64,000 nucleotides of DNA from Rugalucina vietnamica. Lineage: Eukaryota > Mollusca > Bivalvia > Lucinida > Lucinidae. The position numbers and the translations under genes were made by a program. The notes under the pieces were generated by a model. It searched no databases and had not been told where the DNA came from. It worked only from the letters and a program-made list of their open reading frames with translations. Where the stretch lies: positions 45,264,883 through 45,328,882 of the forward strand of contig OZ024879.1 in assembly GCA_964017185.1 (NCBI GenBank), given 5' to 3'. Below are positions 13,001-61,159 of the stretch, piece by piece (position 1 is the first letter of the stretch; every line of letters begins with the position of its first letter).

Positions 13001-15285
13001 CTAGATTATCTAGATTTCTCCAGTGGCATCTTCGGCCTCTGATAATTGATAACTGTAATGTGCGAATTGCATGAACAAAATGAACACAACCGTTTGTTCT
13101 CATAGGTATTAACGAGGTAGATATCGCACCTGCATCGGGCAAAATAACTAAAAACGAGAAATATAGGTCGAGGGCACCAGGTCAAGGTGTGTTCTGAAAG
13201 GGTATGTCAAGGACAATTACTATGCAAGGTTTCACATTCGCAGCTACCTTAGGTGCACAGAAAACCAAACTTTGACATAAAAATTAACAAAGTCAATGGA
13301 CCGTGAAATATAGGTCAAGGGCACCGAATCAAGGTTCGTGCTTGAAGGGTACGACAAGGACAATTTTAAAATATACATGGTTTCACGCTTGCAGCAATCA
13401 CTGATGCAGAGAAAACCAAATTCCGACGTAAAATCAACAAAGTCAATGGCCCATGTTTTAAAGGTCAAGGGCATGTCAAGGAGGGTTTGTCATGGACAAT
13501 TACTATGCAAGGTTTCAAACTTGCAGCTATCACTGATGCAGAGAAAACCAAACTTCGACGTAAAAACCAAACTTCGACTTAAAAAAATAACAACGTCAAC
13601 GGACTGTGAAATATAGGGCAAGGGCACCGGGCCAAGGTGCGTGCTTGAAGGGTATATCAAGGACAATGACTATGCAAGGTTTCATACTTGCAGCTATCAC
13701 TGATGTAGGGAAAACCAAACTTCGACGTAAATGTTGACGGACGGACGGACGGAAATTTGGACTCCTATATCGCACCCTAATATAAGCAGGTGCGATAAAA
13801 AGCAATTGGTACAGAACAGATACGCCGCAGATAAGAATGGAACGTAGAACATATGTCGTAGATTTTCATACGCCACACATACGTCACACGTACGTAGCAC
13901 ATACACCTTGATACGCCGTACATACGAAAGAGAAATTCCATTCTAATACAGATACGTCACTGATACGCCACAGGTACGTCACACGTACGTGGTACATACG
14001 TCGCTTGAACAAAATACGTCTCAGACCTCGGCGTGTCGCAGTTTTCATAGATACGCGAGCGATACGCCGCTGATACGTGAATATGTGACAGAGGCTTTAG
14101 ATAATCGATATATTGCTGTACTAAAATATAATCATCAATCGATCCGATTAGCGTTTGTTTTGTTTACGTTTTCTTGGTCCTGAAATGCGGAACCGGAAGG
14201 GCATGAATCGATTTTCTTTTTCTTAATAGGCGGTTACGCATTTAAAGGTTTGTTAACCGTGATGCTGTATTTTGTCTGCATTATTTGCTGTCTTATCTTG
14301 GTAACATTGACTTTTGGTAAAAATATTATTGCCAATGGTATGAACTCCGAACGTACCCAATTCAAATACCAATTATTTGTAAAGAATCATTTTAAGTCGC
14401 CTCAAATGAAAACTAACAATCTGCACATTCGAAAACAAAGGCGCAGATCAGCTTCGCAGTAACTGCGAAGCTGATCAGCGCCTTTATTTTCGCTACACGG
14501 ATAATAGAATTCCTCTATTTTCAAAATCCAAAGTTTCTAGTCTCTAGCCGTCTCCCGTGCTTGTACAGCCCGGTTTGTGTCGGACCTGTTCGAATACCAC
14601 ATTGTTCCCCACCCCCCTCAAGTTTTACCTGTATACAGTGCGGCAGTCGTAGCCGTTACCGCAAAATGGTTCTGTATAAACTTTGGCACGAACGTGGCAA
14701 ACCCTGACGTCAGGATACCCTCTGAGGCCCCTGCCAACATCGTAAAAAGAAAGGGCTGGTTTCGGATAAGGGCCCAGATCACTTTAGGGAATTCTTTGAT
14801 GGGTAGTCGGGTAGCGGTGACGGCTTTGGACTGTTTCTGGCTTCCTTTGTGCATCTGTGAGACACGGGTCTCTCGTATAGTTTTGGCGGCTGAAAAAGTA
14901 ATAATTGAGCCGCCTCGTGGGAAAACCAACAATGTGGTTTCCGAACAGGTCTGACACAAACCGGCCTGTACAGTCACAGAAGCAGGCTAGAAGCTTGAAA
15001 TTTCGGATTTAAGTAAAAGAGGAATTGTACTATCCGAGTAGCGAAAACAAAGGCGCTGATCAGCTTCGCGGTATCTGCGCCTTTGTTATCGCCTATGCTG
15101 ATTGTTGGTTTTCCCATGCGGCGGCTCAATTATTTACAACCTGATCGAAAGAGATTTTGGCTCTTAAACTGTAAATCTGACCAGCGGTCTTCAGTGTCAC
15201 TTACTTCCGCATCCAAATCTAGAATAATCAAGGCATGATAATTATGATTAAAACTAGATGTACATGTGCGCCTCCTGCATCAAAG

Positions 15286-15321
<36 letters not shown>

Positions 15322-42900: not shown

Positions 42901-45900
42901 ATTTACATGTAAAATCAAATGGGGGGAAATAAAAGTGCTTGCTTAAGACAGGTGCTTGCTTAATACAGGGCTTGCTTAAGACAGGTTGGACTGTACAACT
43001 ATGATCCTTCATGAGTGATGAACATATTGATGCGAAAGGGGATGAACATTTAGAGCAGCCATATGATACAACATCAGCTGCAGTAATAGCAAAAAACAAT
43101 TAAACTATGATCCTTCAAGAGTAGTGATTAATGAGAAAGGGTGTGGATAGAAACATGGTTTTGGCTACTTAAGCCTCGTCAGTGACCCTTTAGATTTGAC
43201 AACATGAAGCCCTATGGAATTATTGTACTTTTGCACTTTTAAACAGTTGCCTGAACAACAGTTGCCATCTCTGAATTTTGGCTGGACAAAGCAGAACAAC
43301 ATATGGGTTCCTAAATGGACAACACAGTCTGGTATTGCCGAATACTGTCAGGAGTTACAAAAGTGTGGCTGTATAAAGTTACAATTTACTGGAAATGCTA
43401 CCGTTCAGGCCTTTCATGCGCAAAAATGTGTTCATGTAGCTGTCAAGAAGACCAATAAATCTTACAGTTGTGAACAACTCTCGTATTGACAGCAGCCATG
43501 TAAATGTATATGCTGGGTAATTGGCTTTGATATATTTATTGCAAAGCCCGTTCAGTTTAATTTAAATAAGCTGTACTGAATGTAATTATTCTTAATGAGT
43601 TAATTTGTTGCATAATTCATGCTTATTGGTTAGTAGAATTAAACAATATTTTATTTTTGTACTTTATTTCTTGAGTCCTTTATTTAGTATTTTATTTTTG
43701 AGTCAAAATGTGTTATTTAAGATAATTTCTTTTCCTTTATTTCTTGAATTCCCATAGCTTTCTCTTTTAAATTATAAGGAAAATATGTCATTAATATTCA
43801 TGACTTTATTTATAATTAACAACTTAACTCTAAGGGGCATTGGAAGAAGGACAGTAACAGAGTTTAAATTGTGTATGGTTCATTCTTTGTATAAAATATT
43901 GAATGATTTTGTACTGCACAGCTTGATAAACGCAAAAATTTGAAGACACATTGAGTAATTTCAAATAAATATTCATAAATATGCAAATAAGCTTTAATGT
44001 CATCATGCTAATTTAATGTATGACAAAGTGAAATTTAAGTTCTATATTTTATTTGACATTCCAGCAGAGTCCATGGTTGAATAATTTGATTTTTGTTATA
44101 ATTTTTCGCAATTTTCATGATTTTGGAGGCAAAAATATAGAACTCATTAATATTCATAAATATGTAAATGAGGCAAATTGTTGATTTGGATATAAGATAA
44201 AAGGGTGATGATTATACTTTAATTTGGTATAAAGATGTTTGTTCTGTGCCAAACAGAACCAGAGATATGATCAATTTATTACACAGACCCCTTATAGAAG
44301 TGTCGGCCATCTTGGATTTTGGCGGCCATCTTGAAAATGACCGAATTTTGCGTGGCCAGGAATCATTTTTGAATGTGTGTCATGTAAAGAACATATGGTG
44401 AAAATTTCATGCTTGTATCATCAACTGAAGTATTTTCTCACTTAGCAGCTCCACTAATAAGCTTTTCCTTGAGGCCAAAGCAGCCTATCTCACAGCACCG
44501 CACTCAAGTCAAGCCAGTAGCATTTAACGATAGAGCATAGTTAGGACAGTGGTACCTGTTAGAATTATAGTGCGTTGTTACTCCAGCGAAGTTCCCGAGA
44601 TCACATTTCGCCCACATAGCGGCTGACATTACTACAGTTAGACTACAGCATACTATTGCCACCCGTATACAACCCTTCACTTTTAGATTGAGTTTCTTGC
44701 ATAACACACCGCCGAAAAATTGTCCTCCCGCAGCACCAGGCACGGCCATAAAACCTGAAATATCAAGATGAAAATGAACAAAAACTTCCACACTATAACT
44801 GTAACATCTTATTATTTTCTTTCTCTTTTAATCAGTTTTTACATAGAACTTGCAATAGCTTTTAAATGTTATAAAGGTAACGTTTCATTATAAGCATATG
44901 AAACAGAAGAAACAAAATTTGAAGAAAAAAAAATTGAAAGTCAAATGTTAATTTTTATGCTAAAAAATCTTTAATTTGTCAATCTACTTAAGTAAATTAT
45001 TGTCATTGGCAGTGTTGATATAAAACATCACTATTTGAAGAATCCTGGTAGCAAAAGCAATGTTTTAGTTATTGTGTAGTTAACGATCGCCATGCACATA
45101 CATAAGTGCACGTGGAATTTAGACACAATCTTACTCCGTTACACACGTATAAGCCGCCTCGTGGGAAAACCAACAATGTGGTTTACGAACAGGTCCGACA
45201 CAAACCGACCTGTACAAGCACAGAAAAGAGCTAGAAGCTTGAAATTTCGGATTTAAGGATGTTCGCTGCTAACATTTGACATTTCGGAACTTCCGGTTTT
45301 TCTTTTGTTGAATATCTCGTAAACGGTTGCAGATATTTTCCTAATCCTGCTCTCACATATACCGAATTTCCCTTGCGAATGCCCTTCCGAATGAAATTTT
45401 GAGCAAATTTGCATTAATCGCTAGAAATTCGGAAGCATTCGGTAGCATTTGTAAGCATTCGGAAGCATTCGGTGAAAATTTCGAGATGTTGCGAAAATTA
45501 GGAACATGCTCCTAAAATTCGCAAGGAAATCATATTCTTAACATATTCGTAAAGAATTCGTAAACAATTCGGATTGATTGCAAGACATTTGTAACACTCG
45601 CAAGCCATTTGCAAGGATTCGGTAGCATTAAATTCTATTGAGTTTTGATGTCCGTAAAGAACCGCTAGTGAATCACAACATTTTCACATTAAAGACTCAG
45701 TTTTTAGCATAGTTTATTTATTCTGGCCCTATCCTTCAAGTAAAGGTCATTATTTATGGTGTTTAGCTTTAAGCTATCCAGTAATGTATGACAGACAAAC
45801 GAAAGTCCCGTGGAATTTTTGTTTGCCCAGTAAAATTGTCTTTTTATTGTGTAAATCGCAATTTAGAGAATCAACAAAGTGATGTGTGTTTCAAGAGAAG

Positions 45901-48900
45901 ACTTGGATCAATAATGACATATTTCATATCTCGTCAGGGGCACCAAGACAGGTTTTCGCGCGACGGCGCCCATACATTAAATACACGAACCACTTACAAA
46001 ATATTAAAATCCACTTGCTAGAAGTATTTTGTACACATTTAAAATTTGTAATCCGCAATGAAAATATGCGCCACAATATTATTCCCTTTCACTTATGACA
46101 CGCCTTTAAACATCGCATAGCTGCACGTGCTATGCGTGACCTGTTTTGGTCTAGACACGATGATGTATTGACCCATTTCATTTGTTTATTTACGTTGGCC
46201 TTGTCATGGAAAAATCTACTGTTTGTAACTTTGGAAAACAAAGCCGCTGGATGGCTAGCTATTATGCAGACTGACCCGCGCCTTTGGCCAACCACCTACA
46301 ATAGACGAGAAGACCTTCCCATATTAAGAACATACCGATCTATGTCGATCTATGAACAAAAACACAACAGATTTTTCAATGACATGGATTATGTATTTAC
46401 TGCGCTATACGTGTTGCATATCTCTACTCAAAATAAATCAGGTATTTCTTCTTTAAAATACATAATCAGGACTGCTTGTTGTATGGATATGCAGAAGAGC
46501 TGTCACATCCGGGCATCTCTGATGGGTTCATGTAGCAGGTGGTACTGTGGAGAAGTATACCGTATTTCTCTCCCATAACACTCTATTGCAAGTATTTCTT
46601 GAATGCTCTAAAACAACTGAAATATTATTTGAGACGAGATACGGAACCCGAAGCTTAATTTCGTTTGCTATTTATTTAAATGAATAGTCTTTTTTTACAT
46701 GAATCCGTCGTATTGAAAGTTGAAGTTTCAGGAGAAAATACAGGATTTTCTCAAGTTCCACTCCGAAAATACTTCCCTAAGTTCAACTTACATAATTTTA
46801 ACTTGATTAGCCTTAGTTTATGTTTCTTATAATATATGTACATTTCTTTTGGAAGGCCAATGAGCACACAAACCGAATTAAACTCTTAGCAAGTGTACTT
46901 CCATGTTATATGCCTAGCTGGGGTTATACTGTCTCGCCATGTTTCACGACTATTATATGCTCTTTATTTTTTCTCATGTTGTTTACTTTGTAAACCTGAG
47001 ATGTTGAAATAAACTTGTAAACTTTTCCATGCCCCTTAGCATTGTGGGTGATTTCGTTTTACATTGATATTATTGGCTACAAAGTTTGCGAATGAGTCAA
47101 AACTGAAAAGAATTCGGCAAGCATTCGCTACACATTCGCTTCATTTGTAAGGTGTTTGCAAGACGTTCGTATTATTTGTAACGGCATTTTTAAGCGTTCG
47201 GAACATTCGTTCTAGGCATTTTCAAGAATTCGGTAGTGTGGATGGCAATCAATCGCAACATTCTTAAGACATTTGTAAGGATACGCAAGCATTCTTTACG
47301 CTTTCGCAAAGACATCGTTTTGTACAAGCCCCGCCCCGTCCATTTGCATCATATTCGGTAATTTCAGCGCGAATTTCAAATTTTAGCATTCGCAAGGGAT
47401 ATTCGGTATATGTGAGAGCAGCATTTTACATTTGGATACATATTGGTGATATGCATTGAATGAGCCATGAAAATTGTCAATCTAAGAAACTTCATTTTTT
47501 CACCCCATTTTCTGCAACTTTTCGGAAAAGTTTAGTTGTCAGTAAAATTTAGGGGGTAGGGTAGGTTAAACTTGAATATTACACATCTTCAAATTAATTG
47601 CACTAGTTCGATGTTTATTTTAGATGCAGTATATGTGTACTCGGTCTTCTAAGTCAGTCTTTGTGTCTTTGGTGTGCTGGTTTTAAATTTTTAGATGGTT
47701 TTATGAAATGGGCTTTAAGAAACAAAACGGCCGAAAAAAGGCTGAAAATGGCGATTTTCAAGTTGTTGGTTCTCTCTTATATGCATACTACCCTATATAT
47801 TTCTTTCTTTTATTCGAACAATGTTACCACGTTCTATGTTGTGTGAAAATACAAGAAAAATTTTGAATCAACAAATATGGGTTTGGCACATTTCAAAATA
47901 TTGATTTTTTCCGACTTTTCAAGTATGGGGGTAGGGTTGGAAAATGAATTGTAAAATTATGTCATCCACTTCAAGTTGCAAATTCTTCTATGCTTTTGGT
48001 CCGAAATAGTCTGAATTACGTAACTATTGTGACTTTTGAAATAATTCTATGTGTATTTTTGTTCAAGACAGGTATATTTCAAAGAATTAAAAATTAATTT
48101 AATTTTACTAAATTTAAAACATGGCGCTCAGAGGTCTCATTCAGAGGCCTGTAGCTTGAAAAAAATGCACACTACCCTATATTTATTTTGTTTTCAAATG
48201 TCTTGTGTTGTATGTTGGAATAAAAAAAGAATGGTTAGAAAAAAAGTTTGAATACTTTTTCATTGGCAGCGAACATCCTTAAGTAGAAGAGGAATTGTAC
48301 TATCCGAGTAGCGAAAACAAAGGCGCTGATCAGCTTCGCGGTAACCGCGAAGCTGATCTGCGTCTTTGTTTTCGCCTATGCAGATTGTTGGTTTTCCCAT
48401 GAGGCGGCTCATATGTTTAAAACGAACTGCATCATTTGGGACATTTTCACTAGAACCCACAATATAACGGGTGCAGGACATTTCGTCTAAAACCATTTCG
48501 TCTAAAAGCCATTTCGTCTAAAGGACATTTCGTCTAAAAGACATTTCGTCTAAAGGACATTTCGTCTAAAGGACATTTCGTCTAATGAACATTTGGTCTA
48601 AAGGACATTTCGTCTAATGGACAATTCGTCTAAAAAATCTAGTGGGTGCGACATTTGGTCTAAAAAAAAGTTAAGAAAAAATAAGAATTTTTAGACCAAA
48701 TGTCGCACCTTACTGGAAATCAATTTCAGACATGTGATTTGAAATATTTATTTATCATTTCTGTTTATCTGCAAGCTTATGGTGACAAAACATGTATATT
48801 GATCTATCTTAAATGGTCATTGTGAGCAGTTATCAAACTGGTTGCTATAATGCAGTGTTTAGGATTAGTTTTGTTCCATTGTTGTCTGTTGCAGTTGTTG

Positions 48901-51900
48901 ATTGATAAATAATAAAAGCATTATATACTTTTTAAATAAAAGATGCTGCTGCAACATCGCTGGAGGGATTGGCTACAATTTGTCATATTAAATAATGAAA
49001 TTGATATCCAATAAAATGTTGTTCAAAAATATTTTCCTTATCATTTATGTTTTAGACGAGTTTTAGACGAATTTTAGAGACATTTTTAGACGAACTTTAG
49101 ACGAAATGTCGTATTCGACGAAATGTCTATTAGACGAAATGTCCATTAGACGAAATGTCCTTTAGACAAAATGTCAATTAGACGAAATGTCTTTTAGACG
49201 AAATGTCCTTTAGACGAAATGTCCTTTAGACGAAATGGCTTTTAGACGAAATGGTTTTAGACGAAATGTCATGGATCCCAATATAACAGACTCTTTCTAA
49301 TGTGTTTAGTGTGATGGAATATAAAACTGAAAGTGTCCATTTATTAAAGATGCATGTTAATTTTACTGTATTTTCAAGCGTTCGGTTCCGTAATTTACTG
49401 AATTGATGGTTAGCGTAGTTTGAGTCCTAATCATAGTTCTCAAACAGTAACACATTAAAATTTCCCACTCACCCGTTAACATGGACGCCCAGCCTGCCGT
49501 GACGCCAAACTGATTCTGAATAAACTTTGGCATAAACGTCGCAAAACCCGACGTTATCATTCCTTCCGTTGCGCCCGCGAACGTTATGAACATAAATGGT
49601 GGTACTTTGAGCAGTTGGTATATTGCTGAGGGAAGGTAGCGCAAGTCGGAGAGTTTCCGAGTTTTAGATGAGATGGCGACGGCCATTGATCCGTCATCCC
49701 CGTGTGTTTGTGAAACACGTGTCTCTCGCACGTGCTTGGCACCTAAAATGAATATTCAGGAATTCCTTTCTAAAATAGTTTACTGTTTTTCTAGCATAGA
49801 ACTATTTTAGTATCACACCCAAAAATGATCATCTGTTTCGTCATTTTCTGACCGAAATGAAAGTAGATATTCATTCAATTTGTAATTTCATTTTTCAGTA
49901 TCTAAAATGTTTCGCTCTTCAAGTGATAATGTACTGCTTACAATTAGTTCGCAGAAATGCTCAACCTGATTCCGTCTAAATGCTTTGACCCGTCAAAAAA
50001 AAAACATTTGCATGATTCTTGTTTCCGCAATATAACTAATATTAAGTTGTAAAATATGCTTACTTGGTAGTTCAGCACCATACATAGAGATAGGTATCGC
50101 AGCGACCAGAAACAGCACTGAGGCCACCAGGAACCCCACCCACCACGCCCCGACCCACCTCGGGTCCTCCGGGGTAATGCCAACCCTGTAACATTAAATC
50201 AGTTATGTTATTTTGTGATGAATTCAACTGGGGCGGGGTTAACGTGTACCCACAATTTATGTTTTGAGCAAAAATAAGGAAAATAGCAAAAATTTTCTAC
50301 TGAAAATTTTCATTTTTACAACCAACCCTGTAACATTAAATTTTGTGATGAATTCAACTGGGGCGGGGTTAACGTCCCAACAACAACTATGATCGTATTT
50401 GGGCGTGATATCCATCATGAAAACATGTCCATGTAATGTATACCCCCTTGAAACCCACTTTTATAAAGCAAAACTGGGGTATGCAGGTGTATACCTATTT
50501 TTCTTATTTTTGCTCCAAAACATAGATTGTGGGTACTCGTTAGAACCGCCTCGACTAGGCGGTTCTAACGTGTACACACAATCATGTTTTGAGCAAAAAT
50601 AAGGAAAATAGCAAAAATTTTCTACTGAAAATTTTCATTTTTTACAACTTTAAAAATCTCTGTATATTGCATGGGCATGTTTTCGTAATGGATATAAAGT
50701 GCATCCGGAAGACTTAGAGAGCCCCGGATCGAACCCACAATTCCCGGTGTGCAAGCGGAGTCACGGCCTTTACCACGACACCATGAACACACTGGTAAAC
50801 GTAAACGCACTGGCTAAGGCACGAACGTATTGGCTAAGGCAATTTCAACGCTATGGCTAAGAAAGAAAATGGCGGATAGGGGGACACATGTGCAGGTTTG
50901 TTGTTGTTTTACAGCTTCATTTTTCCGATTCTCCACTTTGTCGAGGTTACACTTTTACTGGCTGCAGCTGGCGACATCGGGCCATCGAACGTAAGTTTGT
51001 GACTCATTTGTGGGTCCCACGCCGCCAAGCCAGTAGCTTGCATCATTGATAATCGGAAAATGAAGCTGTAAAACAACAACAAACCTGCACATGTGTCTCC
51101 CTATCCGCCATTTTCTTTCTTAGCCATTGCGTTGAAATTGCCTTAGCCTATACGTTCGTGCCTTAGCCAGTGCGTTTACGTTTACCAGTGTGATGAAGGC
51201 TTCTAAAATGGATCTTTGATGAAGCAAAAACCTGTGTAGCAATTCGTCACAGAAAATGTTCCTATTTTGACAGATTCAACATGTCAAACGTGATTTTGAG
51301 ATGCTCTGGTTGCAAGATTCTGTCAGATACCACCAAATAGATTATATATTATTTGGTAAATATTATTTGGCAAGTCTCTGCACCATAAAGAAGCAACTTT
51401 ATTAGCACAGTATTGTTAACGTACATATGTAAAATGCATTTTAGCGGATAAAAGCTTTATTGAGTGAAATGCAGTGCGGCACATGTTAATCATGTGGATG
51501 AAGAGCATGGTAGAAAAACACAAGTGTTCCGAGAAAAGAAAAAAAATCTATACGTACTCGTGTGTAGCAATCTGGTCAAAGTCGACATAGATATCCAGAA
51601 ACTGGCCTCCAATAATGTAACCCATTGCTGGACCCAACGTCGCAAATGCGTATAAAATACCTGAAAAAAAAGAGACTATACTTACTTCATAGGGTAAGGT
51701 AAGTTGACACCCCTTGCATACGTAACCCATATTTGACAAATGGATTCTCCCATCGTTATCAATTGGACGAGTCCACTTTCTTTTTTAGGGGTGTTAGGAG
51801 TGATTTTTAAATTTTATTTAATTTTTCGATGAAAATTCTATAAGCAAACAGAATAGCCCCAGATGGGACGCCGCGTTCTGCGGCGTCACATCTGGGGCTA

Positions 51901-54900
51901 TTCTGTTTGCCTATGCCCCACAAAAGGGACGCCAGGCTTAAATGAGTTAATATCCTACGTGTAATTAATAAGTGCACAATTCCCTATATTTCTCTACAGG
52001 TAATGGGCATTTCAAAAGTGCACGTGTGCACGAATGTGAAAAGTTTTGTTCAGACTACTGTAAATGGTGGTATATAGCGGTGGTCTAGAAACGGCGTGGC
52101 TACATTACAAAAACTTGACATTCATTAAATAGAGATTTTTTTTCAGCGATAAAAATGAAAATTTCAGTAGGAAAAAAATGGAATTTTTAATATATTTGTT
52201 CAAAACATTGATTGTGAGTACACGTTAGAACCGCCTCGCCGATGCGGTCCTAATGCGGCTTTCACACTAGAGCACGATCTGTTACGATCGCCACGATTGA
52301 CAAATCGTAGCTAATCGGGACATTTTGCCAAAATCGTTCTGATACGTTCTGCTGCGAGTCGTTGCGTTTTGATACGATCTGTGCCGATCTGATACGATAG
52401 GGTAGTGATCGGTCAAAATTTGGGGACACGATTTTGGTCCCGGATAGATACGATTAGTTGCGTTCTGATAAGATTATTACGATTAAGCCCCCGATTCCAA
52501 TGCGATCTGATACGATAATCACGATACACGACCGCGATTTGATACGGACTGATACGTGTAGATGCGTTCTGGTACGAGTCTCAAGAACTGATACGATGTG
52601 TTGCGATAGATTACGACTGTTGGCTTGATTTTTGGTGATTGTGGTCACGATTGTGTCACGATGAGACCACGATTGGTATATAAACGTCGAAAACAAACAT
52701 GTACCTCATTATGTTTTTAATCTCTGAAGACGAAATAACACTGATGATGGAAGGAGCTGAGAATGAAGAGAATGCGATATTTACATTATTTATGTAGTTT
52801 ATGATAAAGCCTTATCCTTCCCCTTTCTACCCCTGCCTCTGCTGCCATTTCCTGGCAACCTTCAGATTTCTAATTAAAATGAAAATGACCGTATTAATAT
52901 AAAGTTTTCTATTGTTGATCAAAGAATAAAAGTCAGTTATCGTGCCCGATGTATTCAATGTATTGATAATTCGTAACAGATCGTAAGCATCCGTAGCAAA
53001 AGCGTGGCGTGTCGTGTCTCATCGCATTTACTCGTAATAGATCGCATCATATCGCGAGTAATTCGCATAGTCTCGTAGTAAATCGGGCCAGGCAATTTTC
53101 TCGAATCGTAACAGACCGTAACAATTCGTAGGAGATCGCAACTCATCTCAACAGATCGTAGTGTTTTGGACTATCCCTATAACCGCGATTCAGGAACAAG
53201 ATGAGATACGATTCGTTGCGATTTGTTACGATATCATACGATCTGATGCGATGGCCACGATGGTCCCTCCAATCGTGGTAATCGTGGCAAAATTTTTGGC
53301 AGCCAAAAATTTTTCCACGATTAGCCCGATTGTCACGATTGACATCAAGATGTGATAAGATCTGATATCCAAGATTGGTCCACGATGAGCACCACGATAC
53401 CAATCGTGGTCGAATCGTGATAAGTGTGAAAGCTGCATAATGAGTACTGACAATCTATGATTTGGATCAAAAAATAAGAAAAATAGGTATACCAATGCAA
53501 CCACCAGTTTTTTCTATATAAAAGTGGAGTTTTAATGGGACATGCTATCCTGATGATACGCAAACGTCTCCCCAGTTTCATTGGAAAAGGTCCCTCAGGA
53601 CCTTTTCCACAGTGTTTACTTTGAATATAAAGAAAATTTTACCCATGATCGACTGCTCACTCTCAATTACGCGTTTTGTCACATAAAGCGCTTAATAAAA
53701 ACTAGTGAACCCGTCTATACTGACTAGACAGTTAACCGCAATCAATTAAATTTATCCATTGTTGACACTCCCCGTCAAAAAGCGGTAAAATCTAGCAAGC
53801 AGTCTCGATCGTGGTGACTGCTTATCATAGCGCATCTAGGTTTAGATCGTAGATACTCTGACGAGAGGTACAGAAACTATAGGAACTCTATATGACTGAC
53901 TTTAAGTCAATGACATCGGTCCCATGGGTCTGTTTCTAGTAGTGTGGCTGCAGGTCAAAATTCAGAACTCTGTCACAAATTGACTGCACTGCAAAATGGT
54001 TTTCTACACATCGACATATTGATTGTAATCGTGTTCCCTTTAGTATTGGCTTTGATTCCATAACATCAGAAATTTTGGCCAATGCCTTGAGTGACAGATA
54101 CACACACTGGTCAAGCGTTCATAACAAGAAACGACACTCATGTACATGTATAGGAAACGAAACTGAAACGTATGGGAATCGAAATTAATGACAAACCAGA
54201 GAATCAACAACACTAAAATCTAGAGCAAAAGGAATCTCTTATAACAAACGACTGCTGACCTTTTCATTGGTTTCTTTTTGAAGAAGCCAACTTGTTACAA
54301 TAATTGCCCATTATTGGTCCTCATATGGTTATCCCATAAAAGCAAATTTTGGGGGTATCTTTATGTACTTCTTAAGCAACAGAGACTATTGGGCTCATTT
54401 TCATAATATTTGGAAATGTTATTTTAGCTGAAAAAGGAAAATTGCGCATTTTTCAAATGGCAATGGACCATAAAAATCTGCCGAGGAAAGTCCCTTGCTA
54501 CTCCTAATCAAATTGTTTAATCTTCACGTTCGTTGATTTTACAACCGTCTACATGGCGCTTTCGCAATCTGTGGTTTACAGAAAGAAGAAAAATGCAGTT
54601 CGCGCTCTCCGTGGTCTGTGATGTCTTGCACGTAGCATCGGTCTGCTAGTCTACGGTCTATAAGCAAGGACCATGCCTCCGTACGGGGGTATTCGTTTCT
54701 CTGTTATTAAGACACGTTTCGATAAATTTGAAACAACGTTGAAGGGGCATAAGTTATGATTGTGGAACGCTATCAAGAAATTTACGTCCCATGTTTACTG
54801 AAGCGGAATGTTGTTGCATTAGTTTGAACGAATAGGCTCCTTGTAAATATAGTCTGTGTTTAAAACCAATAAATGAGCCGCCTCATGGGAAAACCAGCAA

Positions 54901-56663
54901 TGTGCATAGCGGGCGAAAACAAAGACGCAGATCAGCTTCACAGTAACTGCGAAGCTGATCAGCGCCTTTGTTTTCGCTACTCGGATAGTACAATTCCTCT
55001 AGTTTCTAAATCCAAAATTTCAAGCTTCTATTAATCTCCTATGCTTGTACAGCTCGGTTTGTGTCGGACCTGTTCGGAAACCACATTGTTGGTTTTCCCA
55101 CGAGGCGGCTCAAAATAATGTTGAAAAGTCTGGCAAAACCGGATATTTACCTGTAGTTCGGGCTTGTTCTTTACCCAATAAATGGAGCCCATATCCCGGT
55201 AATAAAGAAAGGCTCATTGAACACGAGTAAACATCGCTTTGCTTTTGTGCCCGCTATGCACTTTCTGGTCAGAACTTTGCAGATAGCCGACAAGTATTGC
55301 AAGAATAAACTGATCATCCATCTCTGAATCTATGACGCCGATTTTTATAGAAGCAGGCTGATCATAAGTGAGCCGCGACGCCAGAAACCCGGTTTTCGGG
55401 GTTTCCGACCAGGTCTGACACAAACCGGCCTGTACAGGCACAGAAGCAGGTAAGAAGCTTGGAAGTTCGGATGTAAGAAGAAGAGAAATTGTAATATATC
55501 CGTGTAGTGAAAATAAATGCGCTGATCAGCACAGCCGATCTGTGCCCTTTGGCCTAGGCAAAATTCTTGTTTTCTCATGATAACTGACTTGTATAAGTAC
55601 ACCCGCATTCGGAATTGTATACCCAAAATATTATTTACCGAATCTATAATTATATTGAAACGTTTGACTCGTTTTGGTGTAAACATAAATAGGAACGCAT
55701 GAACAAAATCTATGCATGCGTACCCAGTTGCATACAGATTGAGCCGCCTAGTGAGAAAACCAACAATGTGGTTTCCGAACAGGTCTGACACAAACCGGCC
55801 TGTACAGCTACAGAAGCAGGCTAGAAGTTCGAAATTTTCGAGTTAAGCCGGTAGAGGAGGAATTGTACTATCCGAGTAGCGAAAACAAAGGCGCTGATCA
55901 GCTTCGCGGTTACCGCGAAGCTGATCTGCGCCTTTGCTTTCGCCTATGCAGATTGTTGGTTTTCCCATGGGGCGGCTCGATTATAGAAACAGTATATGAG
56001 CCGCCGCATGTGAAAATCAACAATCTGCATAAGCGAAAACAAAGGCGCAGATCAGCTTCGCATGAACTGCGAAGCTGATCAGCGCCTTTGTTTTCGCCAT
56101 ACGGATAGTACAATGCCTCTTCTACTTATATCCAAAGTTTCAAGCTTCTAGCTTTATGCTGTGACTGTACAGCCTGGTTTGTGTCAGACCTGGCCGGAAA
56201 CCTAAATTGTTGGTTTTCTCATGCACAGGCTCATATTGCAGTAGCGATAAGCCCGGGTGCCCAGTTTAATCTTGAAGGTCAATGCCCGGCATCAGATCCA
56301 TTCTGACAATAAAAATCTTTTTCATGTAAACAAAACGGAGTAAAAGTCACGTAAATTTAATCGGGTAGGTTTTGAAATGTCTTTCTGGAATTTAGAAAAA
56401 AGAACATAAGTCGTACACTTTTGATATTTCTGAATATAAAATCCTGTTTACATGAATATGGGGAATTTTAACGTACTCTTGTCAAATATCATTGGCTCCC
56501 AGAAAAACTCAGAAAAGTATAAAACGGACATGCAGTTAGAGAGGAGAATCAAAAAGCTTATACAAGCGACATAAGGATAGTTACAAAGAAAGAAAAGAGG
56601 AAAAACCTGCAAACCAGATAGAAAAAGGTAAGACGGAAAATTTTAGCGTGTATAGTTAGTTTG

Positions 56664-56711
<48 letters not shown>

Positions 56712-59018
56712 TATTGTTTTATTTTCCATTTCTTAGTGGACTATCTTACAATGAAGGCATTTTGTAAGTTCTGTAAAGATTTGCTACGTAAGTTTTACAT
56801 AAATAACTGGACAAAGCTGACACGTTGCTGATCTTAGCCAGTGCCCAATTTGTAGCTTAACATTTGCATAAAGATTTATTTCTTGGAACAGTTTTCGTTT
56901 TGGGACGCATGGAAATATATGTAGAAATTCACACGCCACAAGTGGAATGAGGTACCGAAGTGGAGAGGAGTGAAAGCTAGCCAGTTGATCTAGTAGGAAA
57001 CAGCATAGCTTCTTAGACTATTTATAACGGTATTTTATTTCTGTTTTAGGATCTGTTGTATTTCAGTGAAGAAAAAGTGAATGAAACCAACGCTGTCAGG
57101 AATGGATTGCGAGAAACCACCACAGGTCGTGTTTGAGACAGAATCGTCGAAACGCAGCAACAAGCGTTTACTGATTGGGATCATCAGTGGGATCACCTTG
57201 GTCCTCGTCATTGTGGCGGCCATATTGTTGGCCGTCTTTATGGGCGCCAAAGTCACGAAGGACGCTCAGAAAGAGGCCTGGTTAAACTACAAGGATAAAG
57301 ACGGGGAACCAAAATCTGAGCACGTGACTGCTGATGCACGTGAAGAAGACTACACGGTTCCCAACGAAATGCGCGTGATTTACGACTTCGAGCAGGGTTA
57401 TGCTGTTCACAAACTTGAACGAAGCGACGATGATCCGGAAACTGTTGACTACAACGTCTGCTATGTCAGCCATCTTGACCGGCAACACGTGTCATCACCG
57501 GACAAGGTCAAGGACGCCATAACCGACAACGAAATGGAGGTTCCGTCTGACGTAGAATCGGAGGAACTGCACTACAAGACGACAAGGCAGGTGTTTGACC
57601 GAGATCAGCTTTCGCCGCGCGCGAAAGAGATGTGCAAGGACAGCAAGGTGTTTTGGATGGTCAAGTCGACGGGAGATGTTCGTCAAAAACGTGACTGCTA
57701 CGTCATCCGAAGATGTTCTTACTATCTCGTGACTGTGGGAGATAATACATACCTTGTCCGTAAATGCGATTATTATTTATACTGTAATTAACTGAAAATC
57801 GGTCGGAGAAAGCGAGCTACTGTTTTAAACGTCGAAAATTAGAAACGTTCTTTGAGACCAACTTTGTGTGGTCAACAAAGCCAACTTCACACTTGTACAT
57901 ATAAACGATAGAACATGGACATGGACAATTGCCAAACGTAAGATGCTAATGAACAGCCATGTAAATTTGAAAATGACATTAAACGACAGCTTCCAATATT
58001 GAATAATTTGCCTTAAATATTGTTTAAATGCCTCATTCAGCTTAAAATTACCGTATTCATTCTAATTAGTGCACATGCTCCAATAAGCGCACACCCTGGT
58101 CATTTCTGAAAATCATGTGCATAAGCGCACACTACTCGACTTACATATTGGTATGTTATAAAAATTTTACATATAAATTCTGTATTAAATGCACTAAAAC
58201 TTAACATTAGCTGATCAAACACTATTTTACAACACTTAAATGACATGATCTTCCGTATTTTGACATGGAAATTTCAGTATGTATTGTTTTCGTTCCTAGT
58301 GTGTGTTTATTAGAACGGTAATTTGTTACCTTAACTTTAAGTTATTTTGAAAAGTTAAGCGCACTGTGCCCTAATTAGAACGAATACGGTATACAAGTTT
58401 GTCTTTCGTAGATTTGTCAATAGTTCGCAGAAGCTTTCAAATGATTTTTTGAATCCGTTCATGAATAACGCTATTTTGAACTGTATAAATTTTTTGGTAT
58501 TGTACATAACATTTTAATGAATGCTTTACTTGAATTTTATCTACCTATTGTCTTTCCTCGATATACATGTTTACACCAATTGTCTTTCATATAAACACCT
58601 TTTTTCAAATAAAATGAATTTTGAAAATGCTGTTTGTGTATGTTCATTAATAACTTATGCTAACAGGCCTAAGATATTCAGACCACTTACTCTACATTAA
58701 TTTTAACAAATTAAAAACTGATAATTTACAGCAGCTATCTAGCCTTCATTTCTCTCCACTCCGGTACCTCGTTTCACTTCCGCGAGACGGTGTGAAGGTA
58801 TTACGAAACACCGATGGGAAGATCCAGTCTACTGAGAGCTTATCGTCCTTCATGATTTCAGTTGTTCATCGTGGGCATTTAGCATCAAATAAAGCCGACT
58901 TTAATTTAGTTCCGTACATCAAGGGAGACAGACAGACAGACAGACAGACTGACTGACCGACCGACCGACCGGCCGGCCAGCTGACAGACAGACAGACGGA
59001 CGGACGGACGGGCGGACG

Positions 59019-59054
<36 letters not shown>

Positions 59055-61159
59055 TACAGACAGACAGACAGACAGACTGCCTGTCTGTCTGTTAGACGGG
59101 CGGACGGACAGGAAGATAGAGCAGACATACCGATATACATGGGGGAACTGTTAGCTGAGACGCTGTCATCTATGAGCGCAACCCCGACTGTATACAGAGT
59201 TGTTCCCCCTAGACCGTGCAACAGTTGGCCAAGTATTAGAACGTAAAGATAATGTTGCAAATCGCTCTCGCTGCTACAAGATTCCGTGTCGCCTGGAAGA
59301 ACAATAAGACAATGTAATATATGAGCCGCGACGCGAGAAAACTGGTCTTCGGGAGTTCTGACCATGTCTAGCACAAACCAGCCTGTGCAGCTACAGACGA
59401 CGGCTAGAAGCCTGAAATTTCAGATGAAGGAAGAAGAGGAATTGTACTATCCGTGTAGCGAAATCAAAGGCGCTGATCAGCTTCGCAGTTGTTTTCGCAT
59501 AGGCAATAATCCAGTTTTCTCACGATGCGGCTCGTATGATTCAAACTTATTTTAAAAGACAATGAAAAAACTTTATCAAATGTAACAGAAAGTTAAAGCG
59601 TATAACTGAACGTCCACTATATATGGTAAATTATATATTTTTAAGGCATTTTGCTAATACCAGACATTTCTTCAGACTAAACGTCAGTTTGTACAAAGAT
59701 GACATTGATGCCGAAGTTTCTGACTTTCATAATCTGTTATGACCAAGGACAATCCCATTCAATTATGATTTTGACTGGCTGGTGTAGTTCAGTATGAAAC
59801 GGGATGTTCCCGTTTCGCCTACTCCCGTTTCGCCTATGATTTGTCCCATTTTGCCTACTCCCGTTTCGCCTACTCCCATTTCGCCTACACCAGAAATGTT
59901 CACTATTCCCGTTTCGCCTACTCATTCAATATGAATGCATAACCAGAATCGAGTGTCGTTTTTATATATATTCACTGTAAGCATGTAGAACAGAAATAAA
60001 TAATAAGATTTAAAAAAATGTTTGCTGGCAACAAAGTGCATTGAGTAGGCGGAACGGGAATTCATTTAATGTCCAGAGTAGGCGAAACGGGAGTAGGCGA
60101 AATGGGAAAAGGCGAAACGGGAGTAGGCGAAATGGGAGTAGGCGAAATGGGAGTAGGCGAAACGGGACCAAATCTATGAAACTACCCCCGCCCCTAAGTT
60201 TCTAGTCTCGGCAACGAAAGTCTTGTATGGTATACAAGCCTCATTTACAAGGCACGCAGCTTAACCATATACGATCTGTTACTGGCTTAAAAATACCTTC
60301 TGCCCGACATGACAGCTCCACATTTTGCCCCCACTCGTACATTCCGGAAGTGAAGTGAGGTAGCGCCATTACAAATGACCCAATCGCCATGGTAACTGCC
60401 GCCATTGTCAGCCATTTTGCTTTCTGTCTTCCGGAACCCATGAAACTGATGAAAATTCCCAAAATGGCAGCCGAGAGGTCGTATGAACTGGAAATCATGC
60501 CGACGCGTGAGCTAGGGAGCTGGAATCGTCTTTCAACCGATGACGTATTGACGTTGTTAATGCCGTTGACCACAAATCCTGTCGTAAGGGAAGAAATAGG
60601 GTTATTACGAATCGAATTGTGAATAAATGTATCTAACTTTTACTATGAAAATACTGTTCAAAACCTTTTTTATGACTACAAAATAGGGTGCAAGGCTTAC
60701 ACTAACATAACGTCTTAAACTGGTGCGCAATGCAATTTTTAAATCGAAAGAGAAAAAAAGGTAGCAATGATCAGGATATTGAAACTTCGGCTTATGGGCG
60801 GGGAGGTGGGGGGGCGGTAACTACATCAGCGCCTTACCCTGTGCCATTGAGAAGCAACACAAAAACATGAGCAGGGCTTTCGGGTTGTTACATTTCTGTA
60901 AAGCGTCTGGTCGACATTGCCAATATCCACAGCGAGTCTCGACATCATCATCACGGATCTTTTCCTTGTATAAATCTCCGTTGGTAAATTCATTGGCAAT
61001 TTCCGGAGAACTCGGGGGCGTCTCAAACACATCTTTTTCTTTCATCGTGCCGTCAAGCGTCACGTCGTGGCTGTCGTCTGCTGAAAGGGTAAGGGGCACA
61101 AGCTCTTCCTGGTCGCCGTTATCAGGGCGCCGGACCTTCGAAAACTGCTTTTGAATCCC
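36687..61159 (-). CDS. SLCO-B: OATP (SLCO4-like) organic anion transporter
   Basis: Split gene encoding a plasma-membrane OATP/SLCO carrier, paralogue of SLCO-A. Exons on the minus strand, in order: 60838-61159, 60297-60578, 59131-59292, 51558-51660, 50064-50185, 49473-49742, 44556-44754, 38621-38771, 37990-38162, 37329-37393, 36687-36985 (stop). Phases agree at all ten junctions; the sum is 2148 bp. The first in-frame Met within exon 1 (MKEKDVFETP) gives 677 residues, normal for an OATP (about 650-720). An upstream exon adding up to 38 codons plus its own start is possible, since exon 1 has an acceptor-like TTTTCAG at its 5' edge. Hallmarks: 'DPRWVGAWWVGFL', the Kazal-type loop and 12 predicted TMs. 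Intron 3 (about 7.5 kb) houses the plus-strand BRICHOS gene. Confidence 0.93.
37329..37393 (-). CDS. SLCO-B coding exon 10 (65-bp exon, TM11)
   Basis: 65 bp, phase 2 to phase 1. Encodes CIHDSQRTLGLGLKWFIVRL plus LG, matching OATP 'RCV...R.LALG..W...R.LG'. The donor is GTACGT. A palindromic MITE begins 26 bp upstream of the acceptor. Confidence 0.88.
37419..37699. mobile_element. palindromic MITE, copy 11
   Basis: Full length. Begins 26 bp upstream of the SLCO-B exon 10 acceptor. Confidence 0.9.
37990..38162 (-). CDS. SLCO-B coding exon 9 (end of Kazal loop, TM10)
   Basis: 173 bp, phase 0 to phase 2. Encodes VYSDCSCVNQSQGNNVTTVT, VGKCGSGCDKLYIFLPLVFI and ..FTPSPPAVAATLR. Acceptor CTTGCAG, donor AAG|GTATGT. 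Confidence 0.92.
38621..38771 (-). CDS. SLCO-B coding exon 8 (Kazal-like extracellular loop)
   Basis: 151 bp, phase 2 to phase 0. Encodes SSPLPGLTSDCNAACKCHTE, LYEPVCDTVSGVQYFSPCHA and GCQSHDKEGM. This is the Kazal-SLC21 cysteine pattern. Acceptor TTTCAG, donor ATG|GTATGT. Confidence 0.92.
40604..43489 (+). pseudogene. decayed ORF of a transposon-associated protein
   Basis: Three fragments read in order: 40604-40792 ends SEPVIKNKLPLFRRKV; 40829-41032 begins KDGCILFSRLLISCQ and has SQGQLLDTLVQ; 43214-43489 has LNFGWTKQNNIWVPKWTT and IAEYCQELQKCGCIK. The pattern 'I.KNKLPLF / LFSRL.I..Q / GW....W.P.WT......C.EL.KCGC' recalls uncharacterised proteins spread through invertebrate genomes with mobile DNA (from memory, unverified). 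Stops, gaps and the pogo insertion show it is dead. Confidence 0.45.
41650..42993. mobile_element. pogo/Tigger-type non-autonomous element, 1344 bp
   Basis: Ends CAGTCCAACCTGTCTTAAGC / GCTTAAGACAGGTTGGACTG with TA duplications at 41648 and 42994. Extra iterations of GTGCTTGCTTAA near the right end. No transposase frame. Nested inside the 5.2-kb element. Confidence 0.85.
44556..44754 (-). CDS. SLCO-B coding exon 7 (TM8-TM9)
   Basis: 199 bp, phase 1 to phase 2. Encodes GFMAVPGAAGGQFFGGVLCK, KLNLKVKGCIRVAIVCCSL and ..KCDLGNFAGVTTHYNSN. Acceptor ATTTCAG, donor AACAG|GTACCA. The 5.2-kb inverted-repeat element ends about 100 bp beyond the donor. Confidence 0.92.
45257..48278. mobile_element. TTAA-type DNA transposon (piggyBac- or Kolobok-like), 3.0 kb with nested insert
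   Basis: Ends GGATGTTCGCTGC / GCAGCGAACATCC directly flanked by TTAA on both sides (45253-45256, 48279-48282) within a GAGCC MITE. Without the nested 2.1-kb element it is about 0.95 kb and non-coding. Confidence 0.85.
45347..47421. mobile_element. 2.1-kb element with CTGCTCTCACATATACC ends
   Basis: Inverted ends CTGCTCTCACATATACCGAA / TTCGGTATATGTGAGAGCAG, followed by GCATTCG-rich subterminal arms (45380-45640, 47090-47400). The centre has a plus-strand open frame 46132-46578 (148 codons) that I do not recognise. No target duplication seen. Confidence 0.7.
48471..49278. mobile_element. TTTCGTCTAAA-word foldback element
   Basis: Left arm iterates GGACATTTCGTCTAAA about nine times (48475-48650); the right arm is its inverse (49040-49275). 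Flanked by CAATATAACGG / CAATATAACAG (48460-48470, 49279-49289), an 11-bp duplication with one mismatch, in the Mutator-like range. Confidence 0.8.
49473..49742 (-). CDS. SLCO-B coding exon 6 (central loop, TM7-TM8)
   Basis: 270 bp, phase 1-1. Encodes AKHVRETRVSQTHGDDGSMA, LRYLPSAIYQLLKVPPFMFI and GATEGMITSGFATFMPKFIQ, ending ..SMLTG. Acceptor TTTTAG, donor ACGG|GTGAGT. Confidence 0.92.
50064..50185 (-). CDS. SLCO-B coding exon 5 (OATP signature, TM6)
   Basis: 122 bp, phase 2 to phase 1. Encodes VGITPEDPRWVGAWWVGFLV then AAIPISMYGAELP. 'DPRWVGAWWVGFL' fits the OATP signature fully. The acceptor TTACAG and adjoining intron are duplicated about 140 bp upstream in the transcript (50320-50372). 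Confidence 0.93.
50320..50372 (-). repeat. duplicated acceptor region of SLCO-B exon 5
   Basis: CCAACCCTGTAACATTAAAT..GATGAATTCAACTGGGGC repeats 50180-50234, including the acceptor and four exon bases; the intervening 85 bp is palindromic-MITE arm. Confidence 0.8.
50413..50690. mobile_element. palindromic MITE, copy 12
   Basis: Full length. A fragment of its right arm also lies at about 50240-50320 next to the duplicated exon 5 acceptor. Confidence 0.88.
50696..50787 (-). mobile_element. tRNA-like SINE head cut by the 405-bp element
   Basis: Minus strand GTGTCGTGGTAAAGGCCGTG and GGGTTCGATCCGGGGCTC. The element at 50788 interrupts it. Confidence 0.55.
50788..51192. mobile_element. 405-bp element with ~150-bp terminal repeats and 5-bp duplication
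   Basis: Ends CACACTGGTAAACGTAAACG / CGTTTACGTTTACCAGTGTG, inverted and nearly identical over about 150 bp. Exact target duplication ATGAA (50783-50787, 51193-51197). A 5-bp duplication with CAC ends is Transib-like. Inserted into a minus-strand SINE head. Confidence 0.85.
51558..51660 (-). CDS. SLCO-B coding exon 4 (TM5)
   Basis: 103 bp, phase 1 to phase 2. Encodes ILYAFATLGPAMGYIIGGQF and LDIYVDFDQIATHE. Acceptor TTTTTTCAG, donor GA|GTACGT. It follows the 7.5-kb intron that contains the BRICHOS gene. Confidence 0.9.
51846..51935. repeat. ACAGAATAGCCC hairpin repeat, copy 2
   Basis: A 65-bp nearly perfect hairpin CAAACAGAATAGCCCCAGAT and its complement around CCGCGTTCTGCGG, followed by TGCCCCACAAAAGGGACGCC as in copy 1. 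Confidence 0.8.
52103..53555. mobile_element. palindromic MITE, copy 13, split by a TAA-flanked element
   Basis: Left part ends in the central GCGGTCCTAA; the right part resumes TAATGAGTACTGACAATC after 53434. Confidence 0.85.
52256..53434. mobile_element. GATACGATC-word foldback element with TAA duplication
   Basis: Ends TGCGGCTTTCACACTAGAGC and inverse of TGCAGCTTTCACACTTATCA, TAA on both sides (Harbinger-like 3-bp site). The interior is degenerate GATACGATCTG / CGTAACAGATCG words in opposite orientation on the two arms. Confidence 0.8.
53574..54297 (-). repeat. ~710-bp dispersed repeat, copy 2
   Basis: Reverse complement of 9756-10464. The same frame is present with a stop at the position of a Gln codon in copy 1. 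Confidence 0.85.
54875..55111 (+). mobile_element. GAGCC MITE, copy 28
   Basis: Full length; core arms differ by one base; flanks AAAT and AAAA. Confidence 0.88.
55370..55582 (-). mobile_element. GAGCC MITE, copy 29 (degenerate)
   Basis: Second end type on the left; the core lacks its loop and the right end has decayed to TTTTCTCATGATAAC. Confidence 0.75.
55741..55978 (-). mobile_element. GAGCC MITE, copy 30
   Basis: Full length, GATT target duplication. Only about 20 bp from the next copy, in the opposite orientation. Confidence 0.9.
55998..56232 (+). mobile_element. GAGCC MITE, copy 31 (mixed ends)
   Basis: Left end GCCGCCGCATG type, right end CATGCACAGGCTC type; ATAT target duplication. 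It is the last repeat before the BRICHOS promoter, about 290 bp away. Confidence 0.9.
56518..56524 (+). promoter_or_regulatory. TATA box of the BRICHOS gene
   Basis: TATAAAA, preceded by 'gaaaag' and followed about 25-30 bp later by a purine-rich leader, so transcription probably starts near 56548. It is the only TATA box in good register with the splice donor at 56628. Confidence 0.55.
56548..56627 (+). other. 5' UTR exon of the BRICHOS gene
   Basis: Purine-rich, no ATG-led long frame; ends GAAAAAG|GTAAGA, a consensus donor. The matching acceptor is CTGTTTTAG at 57041-57049, so exon 2 starts at 57050 and the ATG lies 31 bp in. The start is inferred from the TATA box; the intron is 422 bp and contains a (TTTA)n run. 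Confidence 0.5.
56668..56713. repeat. (TTTA)n microsatellite in the BRICHOS 5' UTR intron
   Basis: About 11 TTTA units. Confidence 0.9.
57081..57791 (+). CDS. BRICHOS-domain type II membrane proprotein with C-terminal four-Cys beta-hairpin peptide
   Basis: 236 residues in one coding exon. Layout: cytosolic residues 1-29 ending in KRSNKR; a single TM about 30-56 (LLIGIISGITLVLVIVAAIL); linker; BRICHOS domain about 94-193 with NEMRVIYDFEQGYAVHKL, the conserved cysteine pair Cys127 and Cys185, and YNVCYVSHLDRQHVSSPDKV; then RQKR (201-204), a furin-type site; then a 32-residue tail with Cys206, 212, 229 and 235. The tail spacing C-x5-C-x16-C-x5-C is mirror-symmetric about VGDNT, so bridges 206-235 and 212-229 would lock a two-strand hairpin rich in Y, V and L. 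In BRICHOS families the domain chaperones a beta-prone C-terminal client during secretion; annelid members release antimicrobial hairpins. Net charge of the tail is only about +1, so antimicrobial action is not assured. Another role as a secreted or matrix peptide is possible. The ATG has MKPTLSGM in context; Met8 is an alternative. Confidence 0.88.
   Translation: MKPTLSGMDCEKPPQVVFETESSKRSNKRLLIGIISGITLVLVIVAAILLAVFMGAKVTKDAQKEAWLNYKDKDGEPKSEHVTADAREEDYTVPNEMRVIYDFEQGYAVHKLERSDDDPETVDYNVCYVSHLDRQHVSSPDKVKDAITDNEMEVPSDVESEELHYKTTRQVFDRDQLSPRAKEMCKDSKVFWMVKSTGDVRQKRDCYVIRRCSYYLVTVGDNTYLVRKCDYYLYCN
57792..58628 (+). terminator. 3' UTR and poly(A) signal of the BRICHOS gene
   Basis: AT-rich stretch after the TAA with no coding pattern or transposon. 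The first good signal in context is AATAAA at 58608-58613, giving a 3' UTR of about 0.8 kb. Earlier cryptic sites cannot be excluded. Confidence 0.45.
58925..59113. repeat. GACA / GACGG / GACC compound satellite
   Basis: Blocks of (GACA)n, (GACC)n, (GGCC)n and (GACGG)n, ending about 15 bp from the SLCO-B exon 3 donor. Confidence 0.95.
59131..59292 (-). CDS. SLCO-B coding exon 3 (TM4 region)
   Basis: 162 bp, phase 1-1. Encodes DTESCSSESDLQHYLYVLIL, GQLLHGLGGTTLYTVGVALI and DDSVSANSSPMYIG. A GAGCC MITE begins 31 bp upstream of the acceptor, and a GACA/GACGG satellite starts about 20 bp past the donor GTATGT. Confidence 0.92.
59323..59533 (-). mobile_element. GAGCC MITE, copy 32 (second end type)
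   Basis: Core has lost one arm (TTCGCAG|TTGTTTTCGC). Starts 31 bp upstream of the SLCO-B exon 3 acceptor. Confidence 0.85.
59801..60174. mobile_element. CCCGTTTCGCCTACT-word foldback element
   Basis: Left arm repeats CCCGTTTCGCCTACT (59808-59925) and the right arm AGTAGGCGAAACGGG (60040-60165). Exact 8-bp target duplication TATGAAAC (59793-59800, 60175-60182). Confidence 0.85.
60297..60578 (-). CDS. SLCO-B coding exon 2 (TM1-TM3)
   Basis: 282 bp, phase 1-1. Encodes FVVNGINNVNTSSVERRFQL, SSRVGMISSSYDLSAAILGI and ..GSFVMALPHFTSGMYEWG, ending SCRAEG. Very close to SLCO-A exon 2. Acceptor ACAG|GATTTG, donor AAG|GTATTT. Confidence 0.93.
60838..61159 (-). CDS. SLCO-B coding exon 1 (cytosolic N-terminus, start of TM1)
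   Basis: 322 bp. Open from GIQKQFSKVRRPDNGDQEEL through KEKDVFETPPSSPEIANEF to CGYWQCRPDALQKCNNPKAL and ..CCFSMAQG. 'CGYWQCRP..LQ..N.PK' parallels the vertebrate SLCO4 N-terminus. An acceptor TTTTCAG stands at 61160-61162. The frame stays open upstream to 61402, but that stretch reads like intron. The true start codon is unresolved. Donor CAGG|GTAAGG. Confidence 0.8.

Follow-up and report, generated by a model that had tools for sequence, protein, structure and literature searches.

What does the open frame at 57081-57791 on contig C11 encode, how did it come to lie without introns inside another gene, and what might be released from its C-terminal end? The frame belongs to a stretch of 64,000 nucleotides of the Rugalucina vietnamica genome, called here the window. 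We consider, with a probability of about 0.7, that it is a retroposed copy of a BRICHOS peptide precursor, set in an intron of an OATP-like gene, kept functional and releasing a 32-residue hairpin through cleavage at RQKR. We call it gene B, and its two intron-containing paralogs genes A and C.

Structure of the gene B precursor

Gene B is a single open frame running from ATG to TAA. The following features were located in it.

57081-57791, plus strand: gene B, intronless CDS of a 236-aa BRICHOS precursor, most likely a retrogene (translation, Pfam and genome search)
57165-57245, plus strand: hydrophobic membrane anchor, aa 29-55, after an N-terminus containing Lys and Arg, probably in type II orientation (read from the translation)
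57366-57656, plus strand: BRICHOS domain, aa 96-192, with Cys127 and Cys185 (Pfam; alignment of genes A, B and C)
57681-57692, plus strand: furin-type site RQKR, aa 201-204 (read from the translation; RMKR and RQRR precede the tails in genes A and C)
57693-57788, plus strand: predicted mature 32-residue hairpin, aa 205-236, with proposed bridges Cys206-Cys235 and Cys212-Cys229 and a turn at Gly220-Asp221 (AlphaFold2 for the hairpin)

The first-pass annotation had read from this frame a protein of 236 aa with a TM anchor, a BRICHOS-type block with Cys127 and Cys185, and RQKR at 201-204. The translation bears out its coordinates and length, the hydrophobic segment is present at aa 29-55, and RQKR stands in the place given, with its equivalents in the two paralogs. 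The BRICHOS block was recognised by PF04089 at aa 96-192 with E 3.2e-9 and 37.3 bits against a cut-off of 25. When the BRICHOS profile was run exon by exon over the 1.09-Gb genome, gene B was the sole match among three candidates scored, in a search that overlooked the other family members, whose domains are split by introns. Between the anchor and the cleavage site, aa 56-200 form an acidic proregion with a net charge of -13. Three BRICHOS residues, Asp102, Cys127 and Cys185, are invariant in the alignment of genes A, B and C. A conserved Asp is found in 97% of single BRICHOS domains (PMC9627735), and Asp102, constant among these three genes, may be this residue. The AlphaFold2 model of the full-length protein is poor (pLDDT 44.7); it gives a helix at 27-62 with low confidence and repeats the hairpin of the tail.

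The tail of gene B has 32 residues with Cys at tail positions 2, 8, 25 and 31. A recount on the sequence agreed with the earlier statement that each pair sums to 33, and the same register (i+j=33) pairs Cys2-Cys31, Cys8-Cys25, Leu12-Leu21, Thr14-Thr19 and Arg7-Asp26. How unusual is this symmetry? Among the 35960 possible placements of four Cys in a tail of this length, 2360 (6.6%) show nested symmetry and 120 (0.33%) show it about the exact centre. Shuffling of the tail gave a symmetric arrangement in 13,066 of 200,000 cases, and in 39 of 200,000 the symmetry was combined with G-[DN] at its centre, a criterion picked post hoc, after inspection of the tail. By itself the Cys symmetry is modest evidence. 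Nor is the four-Cys pattern shared by the paralogs, which have two Cys in the tail of gene A and eight in that of gene C, so that the symmetry as first noted is a trait of gene B.

AlphaFold2, run on the gene B tail alone as a single sequence, returned one hairpin with strands 2-15 and 18-31 and a mean pLDDT of 97.0, a value to be read with the knowledge that the program readily yields confident short hairpins and that such a model is no proof of disulphides. Of the structure earlier proposed for residues 205-236, the hairpin is thus well supported as a prediction, with 206-235 and 212-229 as its putative bridges. A fold search of the PDB with the hairpin gave 346 matches at E 10 and none at or below 0.001, a lone hairpin being too small to discriminate. 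PDB sequence searches returned chance matches only for the precursor, for tail B and for the three-gene profile, and none for tail A; no chain named BRICHOS appeared in them up to E 10. The calculated net charge of the tail is +1, as had been estimated, with three Asp, and at this value the tail falls short of the cationic peptide expected of BRICHOS antimicrobial precursors.

Paralogous genes and the origin of the copy

The genome holds at least three BRICHOS precursors, namely gene B of the window and the intron-containing genes A and C, which reach 30.7 and 38.3 bits with PF04089 (cut-off 25). Gene A was assembled from a protein search of the own genome and from its splice sites as read; it has six exons at C1:80022791-80027748 on the minus strand and codes for 245 aa. 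Its product ends with RMKR followed by GTCYRYVYYIRWWRIGNYIYYRWVLFRISYAC, a tail of 32 residues with a net charge of +5 and Cys at positions 3 and 32. This tail is rich in Arg, Trp and Tyr, resembles in our view that of arenicin, and judging by its composition is likelier to be antimicrobial than the tail of gene B. The tail exon (C1:80022791-80022918, minus strand) was the one hit of a splice-aware scan of 31 kb downstream and lies about 310 bases past exon 5; it had been missed by an earlier scan of 11 kb, which allowed CAG and TAG acceptors only. In 307 kb of other strands, taken as background, the scan rule gave 18 loose and 3 strict hits. By chance one would expect about 0.02 loose and 0.003 strict hits within 310 bases, and about 1.8 and 0.3 over 31 kb. 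A random hit as near to exon 5 as this one is therefore improbable, but one somewhere in 31 kb is plausible, and we assign the exon on the strength of its short distance from exon 5, its phase and the RMKR motif.

Of gene C, five exons were found at C1:68361007-68365838 on the minus strand; exon 1 was not found. Its end (C1:68361007-68361116, minus strand) reads RQRR and then GCKRTCNAYCSCCPRDCGVRCSINCSW, a tail of 27 residues with eight Cys and a net charge of +3. This tail was first chosen by eye among Cys-rich frames and was then the sole hit in the 11 kb past exon 5. Three of its Cys pairs are nested round one centre, and the tail is possibly a cystine-ladder hairpin. The precursors of genes C and A share 34% identity. 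Four exon junctions are comparable between them: three coincide in the alignment and are of phase 0, and the last one, of phase 1 in both genes, adjoins a five-residue alignment gap.

Genome searches with genes A and C gave no further complete member among the best candidates scored. A stretch at C1:81176434-81176562 on the minus strand was considered as a fourth member and rejected, as it resembles exon 1 of gene A and no other family exon was seen in the surrounding 29 kb. Weak matches to gene A lie at C1:11451269-11451481 (E 2.0) and at C10:31156059-31156355 (E 2.4).

Gene B has none of the five introns of gene A and lies on another large contig, C11 instead of C1. Its position is intronic and antisense to an OATP-like gene, whose nearest exon matches on either side are at about 59.1-59.3 kb and 50.1-50.2 kb. 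The parts of this host gene next to it are as follows.

60244-60573, minus strand: upstream host-gene exon, seen as an OATP-like ORF; extent of the ORF, not exon ends (translated match)
59117-59284, minus strand: OATP-like exon match before the intron that bears gene B; extent of the match, not exon ends (translated match)
50059-50190, minus strand: OATP-like exon match, the next one found past gene B (translated match)
49363-49731, minus strand: OATP-like ORF farther downstream in the host gene (translated match)

Retroposition is the most likely origin of gene B: the spliced transcript of a BRICHOS precursor gene from the family of gene A would have been reverse-transcribed into the OATP intron on C11. 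In the 1.2 kb before and the 1.5 kb after the ORF we found neither a run of at least 8 A nor a flanking direct repeat of at least 12 bases, so the case for retroposition rests on intron absence plus location. The copy is old, as its saturated synonymous sites show (pS 0.907), and at such an age poly(A) and target-site duplication are expected to be missing, since they may have been erased.

How much of the precursor has been kept in gene B? Between genes A and B, 136 of 197 precursor residues are identical, with pN 0.197, pS 0.907 and pN/pS 0.217. As pS is saturated, the true ratio of the precursor must be below 0.217; being pairwise, the value averages both branches, while the open frame is gene B's own. 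When the CDS of gene A was left to drift neutrally in simulations that counted substitutions, without indels, 21 of 5000 sequences were still free of stops at 0.2 substitutions per site, and none of 5000 at 0.4 or at 0.6. These results indicate that the gene B precursor is under purifying selection. Nor is its ORF a chance frame, given the number of precursor residues that match an intron-bearing paralog despite saturated synonymous sites.

The tail shows a different picture. In an ungapped alignment on the outer Cys, only 4 of 30 residues are identical between A and B (pN 0.689, pS 0.853), and the difference in identity between precursor and tail has a Fisher p of 7e-9. The first-pass annotation had asked whether the tail evolves faster than the BRICHOS domain, and in this comparison of A with B, within one genome, the tail is far more variable. 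The similarity of the two tails is at the level of shuffled sequences, of which 2579 of 5000 score as well for the protein and 993 of 2000 for the DNA, whereas for the adjoining exon 5 none of 2000 DNA shuffles does so. Both tails are nevertheless 32 residues long, span 30 residues from Cys to Cys and carry G-[ND] at their positions 16-17. The comparison indicates that the chaperone was kept and its client rewritten or replaced between A and B. As the tails are no closer than shuffles, their comparison gives no ground for deriving tail B from tail A. A derivation of tail B from tail A by frame shift was also considered and rejected, as the other frames show no likeness by eye.

Where, then, does tail B come from? 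It may not have been rewritten in place: the retrocopy could derive from an intron-containing paralog that is lost or was not found, or from a gene A transcript that used another last exon. Such a source, which is compatible with a functional retroposed precursor and touches the origin of the tail only, seems to us to have somewhat less than an even chance. The tails without residual likeness next to a clearly similar exon 5 speak for it. Against it, the 31 kb past exon 5 of gene A gave no second tail-like exon under the scan rules, and a genome search with the gene B protein found no second B-like tail among the best candidates, where an exon of 32 residues with low identity could escape.

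Comparison with known systems and the putative role

The polychaete BRICHOS peptides (arenicins, alvinellacin, capitellacin, abarenicin, HfBRI-25 and HfBRI-29) and gene B have in common a hydrophobic anchor, a BRICHOS domain, a dibasic or furin site and a C-terminal hairpin braced by Cys, which for gene B is a predicted hairpin with the putative bridges given above. The likeness in the order of parts, already pointed out in the first-pass annotation, is confirmed by the succession of anchor, BRICHOS, RQKR and hairpin. Gene B differs from the polychaete peptides in that it belongs to a bivalve genome, has a tail of charge +1 and is an intronless copy. Its tail has 32 residues, compared with 20 in capitellacin, 22 in alvinellacin and 25 and 29 in the HfBRI peptides.

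In the worm H. filiformis some precursors are anchored in the membrane, and hairpins with two disulphides are predicted (PMC10745061). Alvinellacin is encoded by a gene with five introns, the last exon of which carries the peptide (PMC5431198), a structure that is matched by gene A and not by the intronless gene B. For Alvinella, an invariant peptide next to a diversifying BRICHOS part is reported (PMC5431198), the opposite of genes A and B, which have similar precursors and dissimilar tails. Across annelids, the peptide is far more diverse than the BRICHOS domain (PMC6780910), in agreement with the divergence of tails A and B. Cathelicidins, too, join a conserved pro-domain to heterogeneous C-terminal peptides, as BRICHOS peptides do (PMC10745061), but with a different domain, and the likeness is one of analogy only. 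OAF resembles gene B in having a convertase site and, behind it, a pair of strands whose Cys are nested (PMC9714404); Pfam OAF_N reached 13.2 bits in gene B, below its cut-off of 27. On these comparisons, gene B is best read as the molluscan equivalent of the precursors that yield BRICHOS peptides in polychaetes.

The analysis shows directly the parts, the paralogs, the intron absence, the coding constraint on the precursor and the tail divergence, and it predicts the hairpin. What we infer is that the copy arose by retroposition and that its product is processed, forms disulphides, is secreted and acts in defence or microbe control. Most likely, the gene B product would pass into the secretory pathway as a membrane precursor of type II orientation, with BRICHOS holding the beta-prone tail; trapping of the client by a complementary strand is what AlphaFold2 models suggest in other BRICHOS proteins (PMC10182729). 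A furin-like protease would then cleave after RQKR and set free the 32-residue hairpin with Cys206-Cys235 and Cys212-Cys229, and the released peptide could serve host defence or the control of associated microbes, as with worm BRICHOS peptides. The defence role is proposed because of the kinship with gene A and its arenicin-like tail and because of the worm precursors built on the same plan; the charge of +1 makes it weaker for tail B. Such a role is likelier for the gene A tail (+5) than for the gene B tail.

Does the hairpin need to be antimicrobial at all? The main competing proposal is that it is a signalling, matrix or other peptide, as with the Bri2 tail, and we regard this as possible, with the odds leaning rather against it. 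The Bri2 tail has 23 residues and presumably one disulphide, compared with 32 residues and four Cys in gene B. ITM2/Bri2 and gene B can be likened, by description only, as membrane-anchored BRICHOS proteins with a C-terminal hairpin released by furin (PMC9714404, PMC10182729), the release being a prediction in gene B. The 23-residue tail of Bri2 is freed by furin (PMC9714404) and reportedly has no antimicrobial activity (PMC6780910); the net charge of +1 and the three Asp of tail B fit a peptide of this kind. The hairpin plan had earlier been tied to the worm peptides, whereas hairpins with nested Cys that follow a convertase site are described as frequent in BRICHOS proteins (PMC9714404), which also favours a non-antimicrobial product. 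Against such a product, the nearest paralog, gene A, has a tail of +5 rich in Arg, Trp and Tyr. The paralogs keep the precursor and differ in the tail, as in annelids the peptide is far more diverse than BRICHOS (PMC6780910), and the five introns and last-exon peptide of gene A match the alvinellacin gene (PMC5431198).

A broader proposal would make BRICHOS in this bivalve a general hairpin-making pro-domain, whose client is swapped or rewritten between copies. Retroposition would then have given an intron-free unit with a near-neutral, doubly bridged 32-residue hairpin and a new function, such as the management of microbes or of algal symbionts in place of the killing of bacteria; we find this doubtful.

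Retrocopies usually decay, and no second tail of the gene B kind was seen in the genome among the best candidates scored, but a decaying retro-pseudogene with an ORF open by luck is highly improbable in view of pN 0.197 against a saturated pS over 197 codons, of 0 stop-free sequences in 5000 neutral simulations at 0.4 substitutions per site, and of RQKR, both BRICHOS Cys and the symmetric four-Cys tail, which are all present.

The architecture is known; the putative retrogene and the change of client are the distinctive points. BRICHOS antimicrobial peptides have been called restricted to polychaetes or to marine worms (PMC6780910, PMC9756803). One review sentence names BRICHOS-domain peptides for polychaetes, mollusks, cnidarians and tunicates jointly, without saying which (PMC12466427), and beta-hairpin antimicrobial peptides of some kind have been counted for Mollusca (PMC13001179). 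In mussel, a BRICHOS protein ranks high among the up-regulated genes listed, beside a defensin-like one (PMC4203926). In the excerpts of the open-licence literature on BRICHOS in molluscs and lophotrochozoans, no mollusc BRICHOS hairpin precursor was described among the matches listed. Three precursors in a mollusc genome, one of them with a strongly cationic tail in the style of arenicin, would imply, if true, a system that goes back further than the annelids or extends beyond them. The three genes would likewise offer new peptides to assay, and the retrogene would be a natural experiment in which one chaperone has an entirely different client.

The OATP locus and the mitochondrial contig

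The window contains two apparent tandem OATP genes on its minus strand, at 9016-23555 and 44558-60573, the second of which hosts gene B. Their exons match in pairs at about 60.4 and 23.4, 59.2 and 22.2, 50.1 and 18.0, 49.6 and 14.8, and 44.7 and 9.1 kb. Part of an OATP exon (FYLQQNETDCLSGAA) is repeated almost without change at 9231-9423 on the minus strand, in copies that follow each other at a spacing of about 82-83 bases and are hence partly out of frame. A dispersed repeat that translates as VQAGLCQTCSETTLLVFPRGGS occurs in more than 10 places of the window, for example at 14557, 24103, 35939, 55047 and 55737.

The mitochondrial contig, C47, has 30,680 bases and carries the genes nad4L-cox1-cox3-nad2-cox2-nad6-cob-atp6-nad4-nad3-nad1-nad5, all on one strand. 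Of its translated ORFs, 9 of 10 were over the Pfam cut-off and nad6 was below it; nad2 and nad4 matched the general antiporter family only, and nad2, nad4, atp6 and nad1 were named by reading. We take this gene order to be different from that of annelids, which speaks against a polychaete origin of the genome. An unassigned ORF of 429 aa on C47 (L032, 3659-4948) and an ORF of 174 aa (L033, 1480-2004) are, by eye, almost identical at their start.
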